Source: Candidatus Aenigmatarchaeota archaeon (lineage in GTDB: Archaea > Aenigmatarchaeota > Aenigmatarchaeia > GW2011-AR5). From it: 64,000 nt of DNA. The DNA lies in the NCBI GenBank assembly GCA_016198685.1, contig JACQID010000006.1:1-64000 (forward strand), in the 5' to 3' direction. Under the pieces are notes generated by a model that made no database searches, had not been told where the DNA came from, and worked only from the letters and a program-made list of their open reading frames with translations. Positions 30,764 through 46,911 of the stretch are shown here, piece by piece (positions within the stretch are counted from its first letter, which is position 1; every line of letters begins with the position of its first letter). A program made the translations under genes and the position numbers.

Positions 30764-31426
30764 ATGGATTTTCAGTTATCCCCTTCTTCCATCAACCTCA
30801 TGTTCGAGTGCCAGAAATGCTTCTGGCTTCAAATAGTCAAAAAGCAAAGGCGACCTTCCGGGGCGTTTCCGTCCCTGCCTTCGGGCATGGACAGGATTCT
30901 CAAGGAGCATTTCGACCGCTTCGCGACCAAAGGCGAACTGCCGCCGGAACTCAGGGGCAACGGGCACGCCAATGGCATGACGCTGTTCAACGACATGTCT
31001 ACCTTGAATGCATGGCGAAACAACAGGAAGGGGATCATGCACACGGACGCAGCGTCAGGCGTCCTGCTCCGCGGAGCCGTGGATAACATACTCACAAAAG
31101 ACGGAAAGCTCATAGTTCTGGACTACAAAACCCGCGGCTACCCCCTGAAAGACGACACCCACGAGCACTATGCCAGCCAGATGCACTTATACAACTTCCT
31201 GCTCACCCAGAACGGCCACGATACCGAGGATTTTGCGCTCCTGCTTTTCTACCACCCCAAGACCGTGACGGAGGCCGGAGAAGTTCTGTTCAACACCGAC
31301 CTTGTCCGGATGCCTTCAAGCGCCAAGGAGGGGGAGCGGATATTTCGGAGGGCGATTTCTCTTCTTGGAAGCGACGAGCCGGGCTCCGCCCAGGATTGCG
31401 GGTTTTGCGGGTGGCGGGGCAATTGA
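30764..31426 (+). CDS. PD-(D/E)XK superfamily nuclease
   Basis: LRGAVDNILTKDGKLIVLDYKTRGYP; C-terminal CGFCGWR. Confidence 0.8.
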   Translation: MDFQLSPSSINLMFECQKCFWLQIVKKQRRPSGAFPSLPSGMDRILKEHFDRFATKGELPPELRGNGHANGMTLFNDMSTLNAWRNNRKGIMHTDAASGVLLRGAVDNILTKDGKLIVLDYKTRGYPLKDDTHEHYASQMHLYNFLLTQNGHDTEDFALLLFYHPKTVTEAGEVLFNTDLVRMPSSAKEGERIFRRAISLLGSDEPGSAQDCGFCGWRGN

Positions 31427-31460: not shown

Positions 31461-34241
31461 ATGACAATAGCACGCCCTGAGGATAAGGCTCGACATGATA
31501 TTATAAATCCCGCATTAAAAGCGGCGGGTTGGGAAATACAACACTATAAGACTGCGAATCCGCGCAGTTCAAAGGGTGTGGTCATAGAATTCTTTCAGAT
31601 GGGCAAAGATGTGGGAGAAGCAGACTATGTTCTATTCGTCAACGGCGTTGCTGTAGGTATTTTAGAAGCCAAGAAAGAAGGAGAGACTCTCACAGGCAAG
31701 GAATTTCAGTCTAAGAAGTATGCCACGGGCTTTCCAGAAGATTTCAGGTGCATAGACACCCCCTTGCCATTTGTATATGAGTCCAGCGGCAATGAGATCA
31801 GATTCACAAATTTATGGGACATTAAGCCTCGAAGTCGAGAATTATTTGCTTTCCATAAACCAGAAACTCTAGAAACGTGGGTGAAACAAGGAAGAGAGAC
31901 CCTTCGCAGTCGTCTTTCTAAAAAATACCCTATGGAGAACAAAAGACTTTGGCCCGTACAAAAAGAAGCCGTAGTGAATACCGAAAAATCTTTGAGTTGG
32001 GCAAAACCGCGTGCGTTAATACAAATGGCCACTGGTTCCGGAAAAACGTATACGGCCGTCGAGCTTTGCTATCGTCTCGTAAAAAATGTCAGAGCCAAAC
32101 GAATCCTGTTTCTTGTAGATAGAAGAAATTTAGGGGAACAAACACTCCAAGAATTCCAAAATTATGAAGCACCTAATGACAGGAGAAAATTTACAGAGCT
32201 ATATCCTGTTCAGCATTTATCAACAAATAAAATAGACGACTCAAGCAAAATATGCATAGCGACCATTCAACGTGTTTATTCTATGCTGAAGGGGGAGAAA
32301 GATTTCGATACTGAAAACGAGGAAAAAACGTCATTTGACGACAGTTATCCTACAGAGCCCGTATCTGTCGCCTACAACCGCAGAATACCTATAGAAACTT
32401 TTGATTTTATTATAGTTGATGAGTGCCACCGATCTATATACAACTTATGGAGACAGGTTCTGGAATACTTCGATGCATTCACTATAGGTCTCACTGCAAC
32501 ACCTTCTAAAACCACTATCGGCTTCTTTAACAATAATCTTGTCATGGAATATGGCCATGAACAGGCCGTTGCGGACCAGATAAACGTAGATTTCAGCGTT
32601 TATGACATACGGACAAAGATAACAAAACAGGGATCTAGGATTCCTAAAGGCGAAACCGTACTGAAAAGGGACATGAGAACGAGAAAGAAGCGATGGGAAT
32701 CGCTGGAGGACGACGTGGTTTATACCAAAGAACAGCTCGACCGAGCGGTGGTAGCCCGGGATCAGATAAGAACTATTATACGGACGTTCAGGGATAAAGT
32801 AAAAACCGAGATATTCCCGGGAAGAAAACATGTGCCAAAAACCTTGATATATGCCAAAGACGACAATCATGCGGATGAAATCGTCCAGATTATAAGGGAA
32901 GAGTTTAACGAAGGCAATGATTTTGCCATAAAAATTACGTATAAAACAGAGGGTCAGAAACCGGAAGATCTTATCAGGCAATTTAGGAATGAGTTCAATC
33001 CAAGAATAGCAGTTACGGTAGATATGATCGCCACCGGTACTGACATCAAACCGCTGGAAATTGTCTTCTTTATGCGTCAAGTAAAAAGCAGGAACTACTT
33101 CGAGCAGATGAAGGGAAGAGCCGTGAGGGTAATGAAGAATGATGACTTTATGACGGTTACTCCAGATGCCACCGCGAAAGAACGGTTTGTAATTGTAGAC
33201 GCGGTAGGGGTGTGCGACAACGAAAATTTGAATGAAACAACACCACTAGAACAATACCCCGGGATGTCATTCTCCAAACTAGTAAAGATACTACAGTACG
33301 GTAAACCCAAAAAAGAGCATATGTCATCCATGGCTAGCAGGCTGTCTAGGCTGCAAAAGAAGCTTACGGAAACGCAAATAAATGAAATCACGAGCTTGAC
33401 CGGTGGGAAAGCACTGACAGATTTTGCCAGAGCTTTTGTTGACTCCATAGACGAAGATAAAATATACGAGGCGGCGCAACAACAATTCGGAAAAGAAGGT
33501 GAGAAAGACGCGTATACGCCTCTAAAAAGGGAATTAGACGAGGTTACTGGAAAGAGAATCCTCGATTCCCTTAAACCGTTTATAGGAAATGCCAAATTGA
33601 TGTCCAGACTTCCGGAAATTAAGAAGGAAGTAGAACAGATAATAGACACCGTTTCTCTGGATGTCGTAGAAGAAGCCGCATATTCTCCCATCGCCACGGA
33701 AAAAGCCAAGGAAATTGTAACATCATTTAGAAGCTTCATCCAAAACAATAGAAAAGAATTAACCGCTATTCAGATATTCCATAATAAGGGCAAACTTCAT
33801 TGGAAAGACCTGAGAGAACTTTCTGACAAGATAAGGACTCACCCTTATTTCCTGACAGAATCGAAGCTCTGGCAAGCATACCAACAACTGGAACACAAAA
33901 AAGTAAAGGGAGCTAGCACTAATAAAATAGCGGATTTCATCTCACTTCTAAGCTTTGAACTGAAGAAAACGCCAGAGCTGGAACCGTATTTAGACACAGT
34001 AGACAAACGCTTTGCCGAATGGCTCGGACGACAGAAAGAAGCAGGCGTGGAATTCACCCAAGAACAGCTAACATGGCTGAAAAAACTAAAAGACCATATA
34101 TCAACATCAATAGAAGTCCTGCCGGAAGACCTTGAAGACCCGCCTTTCAATCAGATGGGCGGCTTAGGCAAAGCCAGCAAGGTTTTCAAGAACCTGAACG
34201 ACACACTGGAGGACTTGAATGAGGAAGTTGGTGGAGTATGA
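31461..34241 (+). CDS. hsdR: Type I restriction enzyme, R subunit
   Basis: EADYVLFVNGVAVGILEAKKEG (PD-ExK), MATGSGKTYTAVELCYRL, FIIVDECHRSIYNLWRQVLEYFDA, IATGTDIKPLE. Confidence 0.96.
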   Translation: MTIARPEDKARHDIINPALKAAGWEIQHYKTANPRSSKGVVIEFFQMGKDVGEADYVLFVNGVAVGILEAKKEGETLTGKEFQSKKYATGFPEDFRCIDTPLPFVYESSGNEIRFTNLWDIKPRSRELFAFHKPETLETWVKQGRETLRSRLSKKYPMENKRLWPVQKEAVVNTEKSLSWAKPRALIQMATGSGKTYTAVELCYRLVKNVRAKRILFLVDRRNLGEQTLQEFQNYEAPNDRRKFTELYPVQHLSTNKIDDSSKICIATIQRVYSMLKGEKDFDTENEEKTSFDDSYPTEPVSVAYNRRIPIETFDFIIVDECHRSIYNLWRQVLEYFDAFTIGLTATPSKTTIGFFNNNLVMEYGHEQAVADQINVDFSVYDIRTKITKQGSRIPKGETVLKRDMRTRKKRWESLEDDVVYTKEQLDRAVVARDQIRTIIRTFRDKVKTEIFPGRKHVPKTLIYAKDDNHADEIVQIIREEFNEGNDFAIKITYKTEGQKPEDLIRQFRNEFNPRIAVTVDMIATGTDIKPLEIVFFMRQVKSRNYFEQMKGRAVRVMKNDDFMTVTPDATAKERFVIVDAVGVCDNENLNETTPLEQYPGMSFSKLVKILQYGKPKKEHMSSMASRLSRLQKKLTETQINEITSLTGGKALTDFARAFVDSIDEDKIYEAAQQQFGKEGEKDAYTPLKRELDEVTGKRILDSLKPFIGNAKLMSRLPEIKKEVEQIIDTVSLDVVEEAAYSPIATEKAKEIVTSFRSFIQNNRKELTAIQIFHNKGKLHWKDLRELSDKIRTHPYFLTESKLWQAYQQLEHKKVKGASTNKIADFISLLSFELKKTPELEPYLDTVDKRFAEWLGRQKEAGVEFTQEQLTWLKKLKDHISTSIEVLPEDLEDPPFNQMGGLGKASKVFKNLNDTLEDLNEEVGGV

Positions 34242-35509
34242 TAGAAGCTATCTTAGTGTCTAAAGACTATGGTCTAAAGCTATGGGATATACCTTCCTCG
34301 TGGAATTGGAAAATAATGAAGGAAATATCTATAATAAAATCCGGTTCTACACCTTCTACTATCCGTCCCTTTTATTGGGGAGGTGAAATAGCTTGGATTA
34401 CTCCCGACGATTTATCGAAGCTGAAGGGCAAGTATATATCTAAAGGTAAAAGAAACATAACAAAAAAAGGGTATGAAAATTGTTCTACGCAACTTCTTCC
34501 AAAAGGCGCAGTAATTTTATCATCAAGAGCCCCTATAGGCTACGTTGCTATAGCGTCTAATGAGCTATGCACAAATCAAGGATGTAAAAGTTTCATATTA
34601 AACGAAGATGTCTTATCTGAATATGTTTATTATTACTTAATTCTCGGAAAAGAATTTGCTGAAAAGCTGGGCAGCGGAACAACGTTTAAAGAGATAACGT
34701 CTAAGAGGTCAGAACTTATTCCTATACCCATACCTTCTACATATGAAGAACAACAACTAATCGTTTCCGAAATAGAAAAGCACTTTTCCCGTTTGGACCA
34801 GTCCATAGCGGCGCTGAAGGCGGTAAAGCGAAAGCTGGCGGTTTACAGAAAGAGTGTGCTGAAGACGGCTTTTGAAGGGAAGTTGATAGAGTTTGATAAG
34901 AACCATATAGCCAAACTCCAAGATATAATTAATGACATTTGCTCTGGCTATGCTTGCGGTAAGTATAAAATATCAGGAGATGGTATAATTCACTTTAGAC
35001 CTTATAACATTACTGCACAAGGTGAAATGTCACTCGAAAGGAAAAAAATAGTAGACCCACAGTTCTCATTAAAAAGGTTGGAATATGGAGACGTGGTCTT
35101 CAACAATACGAATAGCCAAGAGCTTGTAGGGAAAACATGTTTTTATGACGGAAAGGAAAAGGTGGGGTTCTCTAATCATATGACAAGGATACAAACAAAT
35201 CTAAACCGTATAGACCCTAACTTTTTATCACTTTATCTTCATCAGCTTTATGTCAAAGGCTTTTATTATAGCGTTATGAAGAATCATGTTAACCAATCAA
35301 GTGTAGGCATTGATATCTTAAAAAATATAGACGTTCCCACCCCGTCCGTTGATATTCAAAATAAAGTTGTCCAAGAAATAGAATCCCACTTCTCGATAAT
35401 AGACAAAATAGAAGAAGTTGTGGAAAACTCATTAAATAAAGCACAAACTCTCAGAAAGGCGATACTAAAACAGGCTTTTGAAGGTAAGTTAGTGAAGGTG
35501 GAAGAATGA
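34238..35509 (+). CDS. hsdS: Type I restriction enzyme, specificity subunit
   Basis: Two target-recognition halves with central and C-terminal repeats (YRKSVLKTAFEGKLIEF / LRKAILKQAFEGKLVKVEE). Confidence 0.95.
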   Translation: MIEAILVSKDYGLKLWDIPSSWNWKIMKEISIIKSGSTPSTIRPFYWGGEIAWITPDDLSKLKGKYISKGKRNITKKGYENCSTQLLPKGAVILSSRAPIGYVAIASNELCTNQGCKSFILNEDVLSEYVYYYLILGKEFAEKLGSGTTFKEITSKRSELIPIPIPSTYEEQQLIVSEIEKHFSRLDQSIAALKAVKRKLAVYRKSVLKTAFEGKLIEFDKNHIAKLQDIINDICSGYACGKYKISGDGIIHFRPYNITAQGEMSLERKKIVDPQFSLKRLEYGDVVFNNTNSQELVGKTCFYDGKEKVGFSNHMTRIQTNLNRIDPNFLSLYLHQLYVKGFYYSVMKNHVNQSSVGIDILKNIDVPTPSVDIQNKVVQEIESHFSIIDKIEEVVENSLNKAQTLRKAILKQAFEGKLVKVEE

Positions 35510-36078
35510 ACAATCCTGTTTATGCGAAAATAAAAGAAGATATAGCGGAAGAACTAGAACATAACAAAAAATATCTAAATGACTTAGAATCTGAGCCTAT
35601 AGAAGTTTCAAAGACTTTAGTACAAAAATCAAAAGAGATAATGGTTATTGTGTGTAAAATTCTTGAGGATGATACAGATAAGACAATAATAGTTAATCCT
35701 ATGATAGGAGTATCCTACGAGTTATTAATTAAAGCAATTTTACTACGAAAGGGGTTGAATATTAAAAAAGACAATAATATAACAATTTCTTTTCGAGATT
35801 GTAGAAATGAATTAAGTCAATTTCTTAACAACTTTAACCCAAGACAAATAGAAAGAATATTAGATGTGATAGATTTAGTGATAGCACGCCGAAATAATGA
35901 CGCACACTTATTTTATTCTGGATTTTCATTTTATAGGCAACCGTACCAGATATTTTGTACTTATAGCGTTTTACTGAAAACATTCTTCCCGGAGTACTAC
36001 TCCGAATCCGACTTTAGTAGATGCCTTGAGATTTTTAAAGTAAAAGACGCTATTGATTATGAAGAGGTTTTTTTATGA
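35506..36078 (+). CDS. HEPN-like (Rx4H) protein embedded in the restriction-modification operon
   Basis: 190 aa helical; SYELLIKAILLRKGL ... DLVIARRNNDAHLFYSGF contains RNNDAH (Rx4H); 4-nt overlaps with both neighbours. Confidence 0.55.
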   Translation: MNNPVYAKIKEDIAEELEHNKKYLNDLESEPIEVSKTLVQKSKEIMVIVCKILEDDTDKTIIVNPMIGVSYELLIKAILLRKGLNIKKDNNITISFRDCRNELSQFLNNFNPRQIERILDVIDLVIARRNNDAHLFYSGFSFYRQPYQIFCTYSVLLKTFFPEYYSESDFSRCLEIFKVKDAIDYEEVFL

Positions 36079-36260
36079 GCTTAACCGACTTTGCACAGGC
36101 TACATTCTGGGGGGCAGTAGTGATATTCGCAGGATTAACTTACTATTTTTGGTTCGTTGCTGAACCGAGATCCTTAATTAACGGACTTGGTTCCTTAGGT
36201 TTTATGCTATTCATAGCTTGGCTTGGTCTCAAAATCAAAAGTAATGGGGGTAGCGCATGA
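36075..36260 (+). CDS. small two-TM membrane protein
   Basis: 61 aa; two hydrophobic helices; overlaps both neighbours. Confidence 0.6.
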   Translation: MSLTDFAQATFWGAVVIFAGLTYYFWFVAEPRSLINGLGSLGFMLFIAWLGLKIKSNGGSA

Positions 36261-37717
36261 CCGACTCAAAACAAATCGTCCAGAAATTATGGAACTACTG
36301 CAACATATTGCGAGATGATGGCCTGTCCTACGGAGATTACGTAGAACAACTCACATATCTGCTGTTCCTAAAGATGGATGATGAGAGGACAAAGGCTCCT
36401 TACAACAAAAAGTCGGATATTCCTAAAAAATACAACTGGCAGTCACTTCTTGAAAAAGAAGGCACTGAGTTGGAAACTCATTATATAGAAACTTTGCAGG
36501 AGCTGGGCAAAGAAGAAGGTATTATAGGCGTCATATTCCGAAAAGCCCAGAATAAGATACAAGACCCTGCCAAGCTCAGAAAGCTTATAGTGGAGCTGAT
36601 AAATAAGGAAAACTGGCTTAGCCTTGAAGCTGACGTCAAGGGGGATGCTTACGAAGGGCTTCTGGAAAAGAACGCTGCTGACACAAAAGGCGGGGCGGGG
36701 CAATACTTTACGCCAAGGCCTCTCATTAACACTATTGTAGAAGTGATGAAGCCGAAACACGGCATGAAAATACATGACCCGGCTTGCGGAACAGGCGGTT
36801 TTCTGCTGTCGGCGTATAATTACATCGTTAAAAACTACAGAATGGACCGGGATCAGAAAGAAGAATTAAAGCACAGAACATTTAGCGGTAACGAAATAGT
36901 ACCCATGGCCGCTAGGTTGTGCGTAATGAACCTATATTTGCATGGGGTGAATGGGGAGGAAAATCCCATCAGTCTGGACGATTCGTTGAAGAAAAATTCT
37001 GGCCCTATATACGATATGGTGCTCACCAATCCCCCATTCGGTAAAAAGTCTTCTGAAACTATCGTAACTGACGAAGGAGAAAGTAGAAAACAGACTCTTA
37101 CTATCCTAAGAGATGACTTCTGGGCAAAGACCGCCAATAAACAGCTGAATTTCCTCCAGCATGTAAGAAGTATACTAAAGATCAACGGCAGAACAGCAAT
37201 AATTTTGCCCGATAATGTTCTTTTTGAGGGTGGTGCCGGAGAAACGGTTCGCAGAAAGCTCATGGAAACCTGTGATTTGCACACGCTTCTTAGACTGCCT
37301 ACTGGTATATTCTATGCGCAGGGCGTCAAGGCTAATGTCTTGTTTTTTGATAAAAAGGCGGCTTCGAAAGATCATATCACTTCAAAAATATGGATATACG
37401 ACATGAGGACTAACAAGCATTTCACGCTAAAGGAAAGTACACTAAAATATGAAGATTTGGACGATTTCGTGAAGTGTTATAATCCTGATAACCGCCATGC
37501 CCGGAAAGAAACCGAGCGCTTCAAATGTTTTACATACGAGGATATAACAAAAAGAGATAAAGCGAATTTAGATATAATCTGGATTAAAGATGAAAGTTTA
37601 GATGATTTGGATAAGCTTCCGGAGCCGGACGTGGTCGCCAACGAAATTGCAGAAGATCTGGAAGATGCTTTGGAGCAATTGAACGAGATACGAAGTGATT
37701 TGAATGCGAAAAAATAA
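36257..37717 (+). CDS. hsdM: Type I restriction enzyme, M subunit (N6-adenine methyltransferase)
   Basis: IHDPACGTGGFLLSAYNYI; MVLTNPPFGKKSSE; KGGAGQYFTPRPLINTIV. Confidence 0.97.
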   Translation: MTDSKQIVQKLWNYCNILRDDGLSYGDYVEQLTYLLFLKMDDERTKAPYNKKSDIPKKYNWQSLLEKEGTELETHYIETLQELGKEEGIIGVIFRKAQNKIQDPAKLRKLIVELINKENWLSLEADVKGDAYEGLLEKNAADTKGGAGQYFTPRPLINTIVEVMKPKHGMKIHDPACGTGGFLLSAYNYIVKNYRMDRDQKEELKHRTFSGNEIVPMAARLCVMNLYLHGVNGEENPISLDDSLKKNSGPIYDMVLTNPPFGKKSSETIVTDEGESRKQTLTILRDDFWAKTANKQLNFLQHVRSILKINGRTAIILPDNVLFEGGAGETVRRKLMETCDLHTLLRLPTGIFYAQGVKANVLFFDKKAASKDHITSKIWIYDMRTNKHFTLKESTLKYEDLDDFVKCYNPDNRHARKETERFKCFTYEDITKRDKANLDIIWIKDESLDDLDKLPEPDVVANEIAEDLEDALEQLNEIRSDLNAKK

Positions 37718-38072
37718 AGTCGCCAATGGAACAAGTTTTCCGTCTAAATCTGATGTTATAGCTGCGTTAAAAGACGGGGAGAAATTATCGGGCTTCAAAC
37801 AGCATATACTCGTCATAGAGTATAAACGCATTAATCATCATCTTGGTGTTATAATAGGCGAATTACAAGAGAACGGACGTACTATACTGAGAGGCAAAGT
37901 AACCCAATCTCCTTCATCGTCGCAAAATACTTTTGATTGGAATATAATTCCCGATGGGAAAAGCTTCTTCACGGCTTTTGCGCTTGACAGCAAGGAAGAA
38001 ACACTCATAGAGACCCTCCGTCAGGGGCTCGATCAAAGTTTAAAAGAAGGCAGGCTCCCATTTTTGAGGTGA
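37704..38072 (+). CDS. hypothetical protein in RM operon
   Basis: 122 aa; overlaps hsdM end. Confidence 0.55.
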   Translation: MRKNKVANGTSFPSKSDVIAALKDGEKLSGFKQHILVIEYKRINHHLGVIIGELQENGRTILRGKVTQSPSSSQNTFDWNIIPDGKSFFTAFALDSKEETLIETLRQGLDQSLKEGRLPFLR

Positions 38073-38073
38073 T

Positions 38074-38286
38074 ATGATGGGCGGAAAAAGTATAGCTGCG
38101 CGGGCTGCCAATGAGAAGGCAAGATATAGAATAGCCAATCAGTCTATGAAGACTTATATGGAAGAGAAAGCTGCTCATGAACGAGGGCCTATAACTACGG
38201 ATAAGGTGGAATGTAAGGCGTGCGGGTTTAAGGCCCGGTACCAGTTCGTGCGGTGCCCGGAGTGTGGGGAAGTTCGAAAGGACTAA
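38074..38286 (+). CDS. small zinc-ribbon protein
   Basis: 70 aa; CKACGFKARYQFVRCPECGE. Confidence 0.6.
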   Translation: MMGGKSIAARAANEKARYRIANQSMKTYMEEKAAHERGPITTDKVECKACGFKARYQFVRCPECGEVRKD

Positions 38287-38291
38287 AAACG

Positions 38292-38927
38292 GTGTTTCCA
38301 ATATCAAATGTTGCTATATTTCTAAGAACGCAGGCGTGTCGTAATTATTTTCGTGATTTAATTTTGAAATTAATAGATAGTAAAATTGGAAATGACATAA
38401 TACTTTGTTCTGGATTTTTCCAAGAACAGCATGGTAAAAGTTTGTATAAAATTTCAACAGAGGGTGATTTGGCAACTAGACTACATAGAAGCAATGTGAG
38501 CATTTCGGTTCTAGGTATATATAACAATATGTGGTTGCAATCTTACATATATTTCGTTTCCTCTTTAAGAGGTGCGGGAGTGAAAGTAAATGCCTATAAA
38601 ACCAGCAATTTGCGCTGGCACGCCAAATTATTCATTTTCAAACGCAATAATTCGCCGCTATTGGCTATCATAGGAAGTAGTAATATGACTAGGCCGGCAT
38701 TCGGCCTGTCACATACCTTATTTAATTATGAATGCGATGTCGTACTGTGGGATTCCAATCATGTAGCTCTGAATAAATTTATCACTAATTTTTTCCAAGA
38801 ATCTGAAGGTAAGCAAGATATTGTTTTAAGCGAATACGACTCTAGTTTTAGTGGTCTATCCATTCCGGATATATTAAAACGCTTAGAGAATGAATTGAAC
38901 ATTGAACAATATGAAATACTCCCTTAA
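38292..38927 (+). CDS. phospholipase D-like nuclease domain protein (single HKD)
   Basis: RWHAKLFIFKRNNSPLLAIIGSSNMTRPAFG; GTG start at 38292 (ORF open from 38253). Confidence 0.75.
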   Translation: MFPISNVAIFLRTQACRNYFRDLILKLIDSKIGNDIILCSGFFQEQHGKSLYKISTEGDLATRLHRSNVSISVLGIYNNMWLQSYIYFVSSLRGAGVKVNAYKTSNLRWHAKLFIFKRNNSPLLAIIGSSNMTRPAFGLSHTLFNYECDVVLWDSNHVALNKFITNFFQESEGKQDIVLSEYDSSFSGLSIPDILKRLENELNIEQYEILP

Positions 38928-38932
38928 TTTAA

Positions 38933-39793
38933 TCATGTGTGAGCACAAATGGGAATATTTTGCATATTTTCAATATTCATATTATTTGAAAATATCATCA
39001 ATTCGATTCCTTTTGTAGTTTTTCCGGCGGTATAATTCAACTTGAATGACCGTTTCCTATACAATCTATAGAGTTTTGATATTGCATTCACATTATCGTA
39101 TGTAATAATCCATTTGTGATTAGTTATATTTTTCATCTTTTCAGATATTTTAGCATGATCGTCCTGATCATAGTGATTCATGTATAGATTCTCACCTTTG
39201 ATGTAATAAGGGGGGTCAAAATAAATAAGTGTCTTAGACGGCAAACTGTCACTGAGATTTTCAATGAGTTCGATCGCATCTATATTGTAGAGCTTTATTT
39301 TATCTTTAAAATCTTCAATGCGTTTTATACGTTTTATTAGATCCGATTTATTATAACGCGCATCTATTTTCCATTTACCATTTTGTGCTATGCCACCTAT
39401 TGGTCCGCCATTTAATATTCCAGAAATATTAGTTCTATTAAGGAAAAACGTGGAGAACCCCAATTTTAAAACATCGTCAGTTTTCGCGGACTGGATATTT
39501 TTTTGTCTTTTCCATTCGTCTACTGTGACTGGGAGTTTCTTAATCATACTACAAAATTCTTCTGTTTTATTCAGTACGGAGTACCAAAACGCGTATATTG
39601 AAGAGTCTATGTCATTTATTATTATATTTTGAACAACACCGTCAAAAAGAAGTGATAAGGCCGCGCCGGCCCCGCCCGCGTATGGTTCGACATACGTACC
39701 ACCCACTAAATCATTTTCTGCGATTAGCTTTCTTATGAATGGTACTATCTTGGTTTTACCACCAGGATATCTAAGAGGCGAATAATATGTCAT
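38933..39793 (-). CDS. Dam-type DNA adenine methylase
   Basis: SPLRYPGGKTKIVPFIRKLI; YVEPYAGGAGAALSLLFDG; LIYFDPPYYIKGENLY; start placed at the ATGA overlap with the upstream ORF. Confidence 0.93.
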   Translation of the reverse strand: MTYYSPLRYPGGKTKIVPFIRKLIAENDLVGGTYVEPYAGGAGAALSLLFDGVVQNIIINDIDSSIYAFWYSVLNKTEEFCSMIKKLPVTVDEWKRQKNIQSAKTDDVLKLGFSTFFLNRTNISGILNGGPIGGIAQNGKWKIDARYNKSDLIKRIKRIEDFKDKIKLYNIDAIELIENLSDSLPSKTLIYFDPPYYIKGENLYMNHYDQDDHAKISEKMKNITNHKWIITYDNVNAISKLYRLYRKRSFKLNYTAGKTTKGIELMIFSNNMNIENMQNIPICAHT

Positions 39794-41130
39794 GAGTTGG
39801 ATGCCTCCCATAGTTTTTCTATGAACTCTTGTATATTGTCCCATGTCGTAGTTAGATATTGCGCTGTTGGTGCAAAGTCCTTATTGTGTAGAAATGCTTG
39901 CCATGTCTTTATTCCAAGAACTCCATACTGTTCCGAAGCAGCGGTTCTTATACCCTTCAACTTATAGGAATTAACTTTGTGTTGTTTTTCTAACATTTCG
40001 GCTACTGCTGACGCCTTGTCTTTGAGTGATATAAATTTTCCAGTCTTTTCTGTAGGAATCTCATTTTTTTCGCAAAAATGATCTATACTTAATTCCACAA
40101 AAACTCGAAATAATGCTGCGGTTGCATTAACATAATTTTCTATTGGAATTTTTTTTAATTCGTGGTATATACTGTTAATTTTTGGATTATCTATGCTGAT
40201 ATTACACGTTTTTGGTATTAATTTTTGACGATTTTTTGGATTCACCTTTATCTTTTTAGCTACCGTACCGGTATTATTCGTAGGTTGTAATAATGCCCAC
40301 AGTTTCTCGCTTGTTTTAGATTTATCTGGCAATGCATCTTTCGGGAGTGATTTAATGTAATCTTGCCTGTCTTTTTTGCTATATATGGTTTTTACTGTGA
40401 AATTGGGGTCTATACAATCCGTGACAATCTTTTCGAGAGTCTTTGCAATCTCTTTTCCATCTATCTCTGTCTTAAGCTCTCCGTCGGAATAATTGATCCC
40501 GATAGCATTTCGTATATCTGGATCTGAAAGAAGCCTATCGAGATTCGTTAATTTTACATCCTTCATTTTGTCTTTTGTATCAGTAGATATATACGGAGAG
40601 CTTTCCAGGAATGACAAAACTTGCAAAGCTATACTGGGTGTTCCATTATTTTTCTGTTCGTAACGATTTTTTTGCACAGAAGTCCATTTTTCTGTACCCG
40701 CACCTTCGTTTCCTAGTCCGTGCTTTAATGCAATCCAGTGATCGGCCTCTTTAGGATCATCATAATAAATGCATTCAACATTTGTTATAATTTTATTCTG
40801 ATGCTGTTTTTTTAAATCTTCAAATTTTTTCTTCAGGCCATTGTCACGTATCCTATCGGGATTCACTAAAAATTTTAATACGACGGCACGTCTATTTCCT
40901 TCCAAAACTATATATTTTGTTTTATCGTGTTGCCATGGAGAAATAATTATTTGATCCGTGGGGTTTAAGTTATATGTCATTATATCCAGTGCAAGAGAGT
41001 ACAACTTTTTATTGCCTTGATCATCTACTATATTTTTTATAGCGGCTTCTTCATCTCCAACCGGCTCGTAACGATAGTTCTCGGGATTTATCAATAAATC
41101 TTCTATCTTCACAGTCTTAGTGTTTGTCAT
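39790..41130 (-). CDS. ParB/Srx-like N-terminal domain protein
   Basis: VKIEDLLINPENYRYEP ... KYIVLEGNRRAVVLKFL ParB-like box; 446 aa with uncharacterised C-terminal region. Confidence 0.75.
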   Translation of the reverse strand: MTNTKTVKIEDLLINPENYRYEPVGDEEAAIKNIVDDQGNKKLYSLALDIMTYNLNPTDQIIISPWQHDKTKYIVLEGNRRAVVLKFLVNPDRIRDNGLKKKFEDLKKQHQNKIITNVECIYYDDPKEADHWIALKHGLGNEGAGTEKWTSVQKNRYEQKNNGTPSIALQVLSFLESSPYISTDTKDKMKDVKLTNLDRLLSDPDIRNAIGINYSDGELKTEIDGKEIAKTLEKIVTDCIDPNFTVKTIYSKKDRQDYIKSLPKDALPDKSKTSEKLWALLQPTNNTGTVAKKIKVNPKNRQKLIPKTCNISIDNPKINSIYHELKKIPIENYVNATAALFRVFVELSIDHFCEKNEIPTEKTGKFISLKDKASAVAEMLEKQHKVNSYKLKGIRTAASEQYGVLGIKTWQAFLHNKDFAPTAQYLTTTWDNIQEFIEKLWEASNS

Positions 41131-45063: not shown

Positions 45064-45214
45064 TTCATTAGAATGTAGGGGAAGCTTTTATGCGTGCACT
45101 ATGCATCCTTGAACTTTATAGCGTGAACATCATGCTATTCCCGAATACTGCAGGGAACTTTTCACTTTCGCCATGCGCGGCAGTCTTTTATATATCCCCT
45201 GCCGGAATCTTATT

Positions 45215-46072
45215 ATGGAAAGCCGGTTGTTAAACAGGCAGAAGGTCCTTATGTTGATGCTTGAAGAACTGCAGAACCGTGGTATTGCATCAAAGACTTT
45301 CCTTGTAAAGTCCCTGTTCCTTCTCGGACAGGAAGGAAATGCGGATTCTGGCGGCGGTAATAAATTAAAATTGTATTCCTTTTACCCATACAAATACGGA
45401 CCGTTCTCTTCGCTTTCCTATGACGACTTGATAGCGCTTGAGAAGCGTGGTTATATTACAAAGGACCGAAATGTCACGGAGAGAGGGAGGTTTGCCAGCC
45501 AGAAAATTAGGAAAACGCTCATGCCCAAGATAAAGAGCATAGTGGAACGATTCAATTCACAGGAAGAAATCAAGAGTTATGTTTACAAAAAATATCCCGA
45601 ATATACTGTAAGGAGCGAGCTACTGCCGAAAACGACAGTTAGGGAAAAAGGTATATGCACGATAGGATACGAAGGAAAGGACATAGATGAATTTCTCAAT
45701 ATGCTGATAAAGAACAACGTTACGGTATTGGCGGACATACGGCATAACCCATTCAGCATGAACCCAAGCTACAGGCGGGAAAGTCTTAAAAGCAAGTTGG
45801 AAAGTGCCGGAATACGCTATATCCACATCAAGAATCTTGGCATAGAAGGGAGCATGAGGAAAGGTCTCGTATCGACGGAAGCTTATACGACCCTTTTCAG
45901 GGAGTATAGCGACAGAATCCGCAAAAATCCAGCGGAGATAGAACAACTCACCCAACTCGGCGGCAATGAAAAGGTAGCGTTGCTCTGCTTCGAGAACGAC
46001 AAGAATATGTGCCACAGAGGAATAGTTGCCGAAGAACTTGAGAAGAAAGGTATCGCTGCGGTTCACTTATAG
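45215..46072 (+). CDS. fusion of an N-terminal PanA/SocA-like (Panacea, DUF4065-like) domain with DUF488
   Basis: C-terminal CTIGYEGKDIDEFLNMLIKNNVTVLADIRHNPFSMNPSYR ... LLCFENDKNMCHRGIVAEEL (DUF488); N-terminal KLKLYSFYPYKYGPFSSLSYDDLIALEKRGYI. Confidence 0.75.
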   Translation: MESRLLNRQKVLMLMLEELQNRGIASKTFLVKSLFLLGQEGNADSGGGNKLKLYSFYPYKYGPFSSLSYDDLIALEKRGYITKDRNVTERGRFASQKIRKTLMPKIKSIVERFNSQEEIKSYVYKKYPEYTVRSELLPKTTVREKGICTIGYEGKDIDEFLNMLIKNNVTVLADIRHNPFSMNPSYRRESLKSKLESAGIRYIHIKNLGIEGSMRKGLVSTEAYTTLFREYSDRIRKNPAEIEQLTQLGGNEKVALLCFENDKNMCHRGIVAEELEKKGIAAVHL

Positions 46073-46158
46073 CAAATTGCAATAATAATGGAGCATTTGC
46101 CTGCAATTTGTTATATGTAAATAACATTATAGAATGCTCCAAAATAAACGTTATTTAC
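46068..46158. repeat. three interleaved 9-bp inverted repeats (A-B-A'-C-B'-C')
   Basis: A/A' CAAATTGCA (46073-46081)/TGCAATTTG (46102-46110); B/B' TGGAGCATT (46089-46097)/AATGCTCCA (46133-46141); C/C' GTAAATAAC (46117-46125)/GTTATTTAC (46150-46158). Confidence 0.85.
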
Positions 46159-46165
46159 TATTATA

Positions 46166-46911
46166 GTGAAAGAAAAAGTTTTGGTCCTCACCCGGGCCAC
46201 GCCTGAAGAAAGCAGGAAATACGGATACAAGGTATGCGTAGCAGGCATTACAGAGAATGGAGGAGGCTCTATCCGTTTACGTTTCAGTACGGAAAAGTTT
46301 CCCTGCCGTTTGGGAAGAAAGATATAATAGAAGTCGAAACCGAGAAAAATTCTGAAGATGCCAGAAAGGAAAGCAGAAAAGTCAGAAGCTTTGAGAAAAT
46401 TCCTTTGCCGAAAGATGATAGAGAAATAGTACGCCTGCTAAACGGACTTGTATGCACAGTAGAAAATATGAAAAACAAAGGCGACAGCTTATGCGTTATA
46501 AAACCTGAAATAGCAGGATTGGACGTTATTATAAATGACATGAATATTTGTGATGAACAAACATATTTTTCCCTTTCCGCCGGCCTTGGAAAACGCGAGA
46601 AGACTAAGATCCCTATCGAATGCTCATACATTTTCACATGCGGCGGCGAATGCTGCGGCAGCAGATCCCACAAGATGATAATTATAGATTGGGAAGTAAA
46701 TGAACTCGCAAGAAACGTACTCAAGTCAGAACCGAATAAGACGGAAGCGGAACGAAAAATAAGAGCAAAACTCTTCCATTGGATGAAGACGCGCGAAGTA
46801 TATTTCATATTAGGCACGCATTTCAAATGGAAAACGCCTATGATAATAGGAATTTACTATCCTTCCTCGGTTGCAGCAGGACAGAGCATGCTGAAAGAAT
46901 TTCAAAAATGA
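46166..46911 (+). pseudogene. uncharacterised DUF488-neighbour family protein, apparently frameshifted near 46255
   Basis: GTG at 46166 reads VKEKVLVLTRATPEESRKYGYKVCVAGITENGG; the natural continuation EWRRLYPFTFQYGK... lies in another frame (ORF 46234-46911). Confidence 0.6.

Follow-up and report, generated by a model that had tools for sequence, protein, structure and literature searches.

An intact type I restriction-modification operon in an aenigmatarchaeal genome, with probable independent add-ons and a recurrent zinc-ribbon gene

A 64,000-nt stretch of the genome of a Candidatus Aenigmatarchaeota archaeon (GenBank assembly GCA_016198685.1, contig JACQID010000006.1, positions 1 to 64,000; the whole stretch is called the window) carries a type I restriction-modification (RM) operon on its + strand at 31461-38927. 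The operon consists of eight open reading frames (ORFs) in the order hsdR, hsdS, HEPN-like gene, two-transmembrane (two-TM) gene, hsdM, ORF122, zinc ribbon and PLD nuclease. Four overlaps of 4 nt join hsdR to hsdS, hsdS to the HEPN-like gene, the latter to the two-TM gene and this to hsdM (-4 each). They are followed by a 14-nt overlap between hsdM and ORF122 (-14), a 1-nt gap before the zinc ribbon (+1) and a 5-nt gap before the PLD gene (+5), the last of which presumes that PLD starts at the GTG at 38292. As listed in the first-pass annotation, the genes follow one another in this order and largely overlap. Overall, the locus is probably a horizontally acquired, intact type I RM operon with independent add-ons gained in layers, among which the zinc ribbon is an RM-linked exception.

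The hsd core is, judged by its families and motifs, an intact EcoAI/EcoEI-like type I RM operon that is predicted to be active. HsdR (31461..34241; 926 aa) is an EcoAI/EcoEI-like restriction and translocase subunit, which matches the Pfam families ResIII (2.6e-38), EcoEI_R_C (3.4e-32) and HSDR_N (4.2e-7) and retains intact Walker A, DECH, TATP, motif VI and PD-ExK motifs. The specificity subunit HsdS (34238..35509; 423 aa; PADLOC Specificity_I) matches PF01420 (6e-34) in two Methylase_S stretches, corresponding to two target-recognition domains (TRDs). HsdM (36257..37717; 486 aa) is an N6-adenine methylase (PF02384, 2.2e-70; PADLOC MTase_I, 8e-197) with intact motifs I (DPACGTGG) and IV (NPPF). 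In such systems, HsdMS methylates host sites, and the HsdR2M2S complex translocates on and cleaves unmethylated DNA. The window operon resembles EcoAI/EcoEI (type IB-like) hsd operons in its EcoEI_R_C HsdR, two-TRD HsdS and HsdM with PF02384 and HsdM_N, and its R-S-M order is common to most intact loci compared. It differs from them in carrying five additional genes within and behind the core.

To place these additions, an HsdM scan of GTDB genomes was used, which gave 491 relatives; the best 80 of the 491 were looked at. The R-S-M order is general among the related loci, but the five accessory proteins of the window are all missing from these best 80. The gene order proposed for a conservation check is thus kept in its core and varies in its accessories, for all five of them among the hsdM relatives. 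The loci include three metagenome-assembled genomes (MAGs) named as Pacearchaeota, Micrarchaeota and Nanoarchaeota, that is, other DPANN groups, in which hsdM is 83-86% identical and the window accessories were not found by tblastn or with the zinc-ribbon profile. Such close hsdM genes in other DPANN MAGs, together with the absence of the accessories there, argue for transfer plus layered gain. A viral contig with a 60% identical HsdM (L004) was also read, in which R or S was not recognisable in the stretch covered. A precise empty site was sought and rejected: in one genome (G002), RecQ-PMM-DnaG is retained and no hsd genes adjoin RecQ, but the difference spans a larger segment (about 18-43 kb) and leaves no clean junction.

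The interval between hsdS and hsdM is strongly supported as a slot that accepts toxin and defence genes. Where both S and M are readable (63 loci), the two genes touch (<=66 nt apart) in 21 cases and are separated by 0.3-7.8 kb in the other 42. Cargo differs from locus to locus, ranging from MNT with HEPN (often), PIN/DUF4411, ImmA-HTH, Fic and RhuM to reverse transcriptase, DUF3800, AbiE and PD-Lambda-5 (L046); PADLOC flags RmrA, SoFic and several PDC families among it. Of the three nearest loci, one holds two MNT-HEPN pairs in the slot, one holds nothing and one holds a single MNT-HEPN pair; such pairs sit in the slot of L005 and L007.

The operon was described as AT-richer than its surroundings, and this is correct for the block as a whole (GC 0.399 for 31461-38927 vs 0.459 for the rest of the window), but the composition is a mosaic by gene and the block runs past 38927 into the PD-Lambda-5 genes (0.387 if extended to 41130). 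GC is lowest in the HEPN-like gene (0.297), followed by the PD-Lambda-5 genes (0.344/0.350), PLD (0.354), hsdS (0.366), and hsdR and hsdM (0.42). The zinc ribbon (0.498) is flank-like, and the RecB/Cas4-like gene upstream of the operon reaches 0.561; the reference is 31 other window genes (0.472 +/- 0.023). This gene-by-gene mosaic points to stepwise assembly of the block. RadA, RPA and DnaG-like genes were recognised by eye in the window; together with genome sizes of 0.4-1.3 Mb nearly throughout the host's class, they suggest a DPANN-type archaeon.

Of the five accessories, only the zinc ribbon (38074..38286, +) is RM-linked; the link is confined to its own archaeal order, where it spans unrelated types of RM. 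Its 70-aa product has the pattern MGG...RAAN...CxxCGFKARYxFxRCPEC. The link was first seen while checking a paralogue of the RecB-like gene in the same genome (G000). Its second type I RM system, on contig C6 (L131 9509-18403), contains a RecB-like gene (78% identical), M, S, GmrSD, R, a 113-aa ORF and a zinc ribbon (61%), and thus has the same bracketing genes as the window around an unrelated core. A profile search of 156 genomes of the phylum found 11 full-length family members, all from one order, and none outside it. Eight of the 10 members with a readable upstream side stand at or next to the end of an RM or DNA-methylase operon; the eleventh, in G020, has a contig end upstream. The upstream systems are type I in the window, in G000 C6, in G005 (behind M-S-R) and in G006 (R-S-Shedu-M-Zn), IIG-like genes twice in G015, and N6_N4 methylases twice in G021. 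At a generous 5% per gene, eight of 10 would arise by chance with a probability of 1.6e-9, a value to be read with caution given that the genomes are related and the loci not fully independent. Within the host's family, the gene is present in all six readable RM loci with a PF02384 N6-methylase, while that of G007 runs off its contig.

The RM cores beside the zinc ribbons differ strongly from one another (mostly 23-44%, or similarity too low to detect); the flanking genes that these loci share are for the most part RM genes and the RecB-like gene, with few others. These loci therefore neither descend from a single operon nor occupy a single fixed site. In G017 and G018 (L180 2993-4315; L182 7273-9417), an XPD/DinG-like helicase carries a related ribbon as an N-terminal fusion, whereas in G003 (L176) a helicase without the ribbon extension is followed by a separate ribbon gene. 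The alternation of fused and separate forms speaks, without proving it, for a ribbon that works together with DNA-processing enzymes rather than one that marks a landing site. The zinc ribbon remains attached to an IIG-like restriction-methylase frame that is split in two in L172 (7411-10165) by a frameshift or an assembly error. A zinc-bearing RM accessory finds no mention in the searchable archaeal RM and immunity papers (subscription papers lay outside this scope), and the RM-tail zinc ribbon appears to be so far undescribed.

Remnants of the 3' end of the zinc-ribbon gene were also observed (L141 287-355, L170 8927-9004, L174 746-838, L179 9888-10010 and L181 6783-6827). Those of G005, G006:C3 and G012 are 93-97% identical at the DNA level to a shared 63-nt sequence, and the L170 remnant is 81% identical to it. 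Some end in TAATG and are coupled to the next gene, possibly as a recombination scar or old exchange site. The 3' end was considered as an att site and set aside: remnants occur in G005, G006 and G012, none in the host genome, and copies are too few.

The cargo of the window's own S-M slot consists of the HEPN-like gene (35506..36078, +; 190 aa) and the two-TM gene (36075..36260, +; 61 aa), the latter with two predicted transmembrane segments and a 4-nt overlap on each side. The HEPN-like product is likely a putative HEPN RNase: it contains one R-x4-6-H motif (RRNNDAH at residue 128), its AF2 model is all-helical at middling confidence (pLDDT 65.6), and HEPN structures recur among the Foldseek matches of the model, at non-significant E-values. 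HEPN proteins linked to RM systems form a known class, and RM subunits have been proposed to hold them in check in the way that PrrC is restrained (PMC3710099). These proteins, including EC042_2821, which overlaps DUF3644, are likewise helical R-x4-6-H proteins encoded in RM operons. The window protein differs in that its family matches fall below cut-off and it has no fused ATPase, wHTH or REase; at 190 aa and by Pfam, it lacks the N-terminal ABC ATPase of PrrC and RloC. Its neighbours are HsdS and the two-TM protein, with no MNT nucleotidyltransferase next to it. The two-TM protein has no family match in Pfam, NCBIfam or PADLOC. An action of the HEPN gene when restriction is inhibited, as had been proposed for the accessory genes, would be a PrrC-like trigger by analogy.

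The remaining two accessories lie behind hsdM. The PLD-superfamily nuclease (38292..38927, +; 211 aa; PF13091 1.8e-7, PF09565 RE_NgoFVII 7.5e-7) probably starts at 38292 rather than 38253, since its homologues align from there. These are encoded by Klebsiella phage 2 LV-2017 (40%) and a Komagataeibacter plasmid (31%), and both keep the catalytic motifs HAK and GSSN that are intact in the window protein. Because the two homologues stand alone, PLD is best read as an independent nuclease. It shares the PLD domain, HxK...GSSN and the RE_NgoFVII match with NgoFVII/BfiI-type restriction endonucleases but, at 211 aa, has no recognised C-terminal DNA-binding domain and no dedicated methylase on its strand. 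DISARM was considered and rejected: PLD weakly resembles DrmC (8e-4), while DrmA and DrmB are absent among the PADLOC matches listed for the ten proteins scanned. The phage ORF (L232 5001-5585), unannotated and on the strand opposite its annotated neighbours, is a candidate prophage-borne defence gene. ORF122 (37704..38072, +) has no Pfam or NCBIfam family above cut-off, no homologue in phages and none confirmed in genome contigs, and its AF2 model (pLDDT 40) is unusable. One remote homologue (31%), Halar_0053, lies on a haloarchaeal plasmid, with a helicase/DUF1156 methylase pair 3.7 kb upstream of it; this context may serve as a lead only. A search of PDB sequences with the HEPN-like and PLD proteins gave no match.

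The defence island extends beyond the operon. On the - strand, convergent with PLD and 5 nt from its stop, is a PD-Lambda-5_B-like D12 adenine methylase gene (38933..39844; PADLOC 8.5e-125, PF02086 4e-20), followed by a PD-Lambda-5_A-like gene (39790..41130; PADLOC 1.1e-144, no Pfam family above cut-off). The matches cover essentially their full length and identify them as a second known defence system, which shares the AT-rich block but is separate from the hsd operon. In E. coli, PD-Lambda-5 has been tested as an anti-phage system, and it has been described as RM+Abi in compacted form (PMC9519451); both components are adjacent on one strand here, and the window pair is archaeal and lies beside a type I RM system. 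The pair is also found inside the hsd operon of L046 (7698-9971), between S and M. Upstream, a RecB/Cas4-like PD-(D/E)XK nuclease gene (30764..31426, +; PF12705 4.5e-11) ends 34 nt before hsdR. It is the only candidate for the ninth operon gene counted in the first-pass annotation, but most of its homologues in relatives are not beside RM systems and its GC assigns it to the flank, leaving eight genes within 31461-38927. The view of the region as a defence island in which an hsd operon harbours effectors is borne out and, with the PD-Lambda-5 pair that had been missed, proves larger than claimed. Further downstream, a DUF488 gene and its partner (45173-46911) have counterparts in L170 (7356-8917) and L138. 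The pair lies close to another RM operon in G006 and close to a RecB-like gene in G008, which suggests a shared defence hotspot.

Four other explanations were weighed against layered gain around an intact RM operon. The accessories had been taken as one composite module, in which HEPN, TM, ORF122, zinc ribbon and PLD would jointly form a PrrC-like second line once type I restriction is blocked. The tight junctions across all eight genes and the proposed restraint of RM-operon HEPN proteins fit this idea, but it is improbable: with no accessory recurring in the best 80 hsdM-related loci, GC varying by gene, PLD standing alone elsewhere and the zinc ribbon found beside RM systems without the other four, the five-gene module fails, and the HEPN protein lacks the ATPase of PrrC and RloC. 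It is quite possible, if short of an even chance, that the HEPN-like and two-TM genes are an independent toxin-antitoxin (TA) or membrane-linked abortive pair riding in the slot. The MNT-HEPN TA pairs of the nearest DPANN loci and the other TA families found in the slot elsewhere support this, yet here an MNT partner is missing, the TM protein matches no family, and the HEPN-like protein offers no homologue with which a conserved partner could be sought. To regard all accessory genes as neutral passengers of a defence island in gain and loss agrees with the variable cargo and with a HEPN gene not found in the other genomes searched. Such neutrality is very unlikely given intact frames, coupled starts, intact PLD and HEPN motifs and a recurrent zinc ribbon.

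The zinc ribbon may instead be a positional neighbour only, marking a preferred recombination or landing site where RM operons accumulate. The near-identical remnants, in G005 and G006 downstream of intact copies, are in line with such a site, as is the host-like GC of the zinc ribbon beside AT-rich RM genes in G000 and G006; against it, its GC equals that of the RM genes in G015, its flanks differ between genomes and the ribbon-helicase fusion suggests a functional partner. We regard this as rather unlikely. The preferred reading, an RM operon with layered add-ons and an RM-linked zinc ribbon, has points against it as well. The HEPN-like protein matches Pfam DUF3644/HEPN at only 1.6e-3 and 2.1e-3 (18.5/18.6 bits, below cut-offs of 27.6/22), its top Foldseek match, HEPN 2hsb (prob 0.91), is not significant (E 0.32), and it has no homologues in 97 relatives, plasmids or viral contigs. 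Likewise, the zinc ribbon stands behind an XPD/DinG-like helicase in G003, lacks an RM neighbour in G025 and is absent from all four RM loci examined elsewhere in the order (G022 and G027 of family f5, and one each in f3 and f4). Most genomes compared are incomplete MAGs, and the partial dependence of the 10 loci applies here too.

On the preferred reading, HsdRMS would act as a classical type I system, and the S-M slot would carry, most likely as a toxin-type backup, a putative HEPN RNase together with a small membrane protein of two helices. The PLD nuclease and the convergent PD-Lambda-5 pair would be separate defences that landed beside the operon. As it is repeatedly the last or nearly last gene of unrelated RM or methylase operons, the zinc ribbon is most likely a small DNA- or protein-binding factor for such enzymes, which may tune or dock them. 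More tentatively, and with slightly more doubt than belief, it could be an order-specific RM accessory: type I, IIG-like and N6_N4 systems would become coupled to one gene that tunes or docks the enzyme on host DNA, which would make it an archaeal equivalent of general RM controllers with no relationship to the HTH C-proteins.

Embedded hsd cargo is known already. RloF of Campylobacter, located between hsdR and hsdS, and PrrC are examples. Defence genes embedded in type I RM operons are also established by TgvAB of Vibrio (PMC11411939), and their embedding in multi-gene immune operons is attributed to Payne et al. 2024 (bioRxiv 10.1101/2024.01.29.577857), as cited in PMC11411939. The TgvAB, RloF and PrrC operons likewise hold unrelated defence genes inside an hsd operon; the window operon differs in its genes, its S-M slot and its archaeal host. 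It contributes a further case, from an archaeon, and clearly maps what the S-M slot holds. What appears new is the small zinc ribbon, whose gene is found repeatedly after unrelated RM and methylase genes within a single archaeal order. A newly arrived restriction system kills its recipient if restriction is unbalanced. If the zinc ribbon is an RM partner, it would be a marker for finding unrecognised RM loci in that order and would show how small-genome symbiotic archaea tame such systems.

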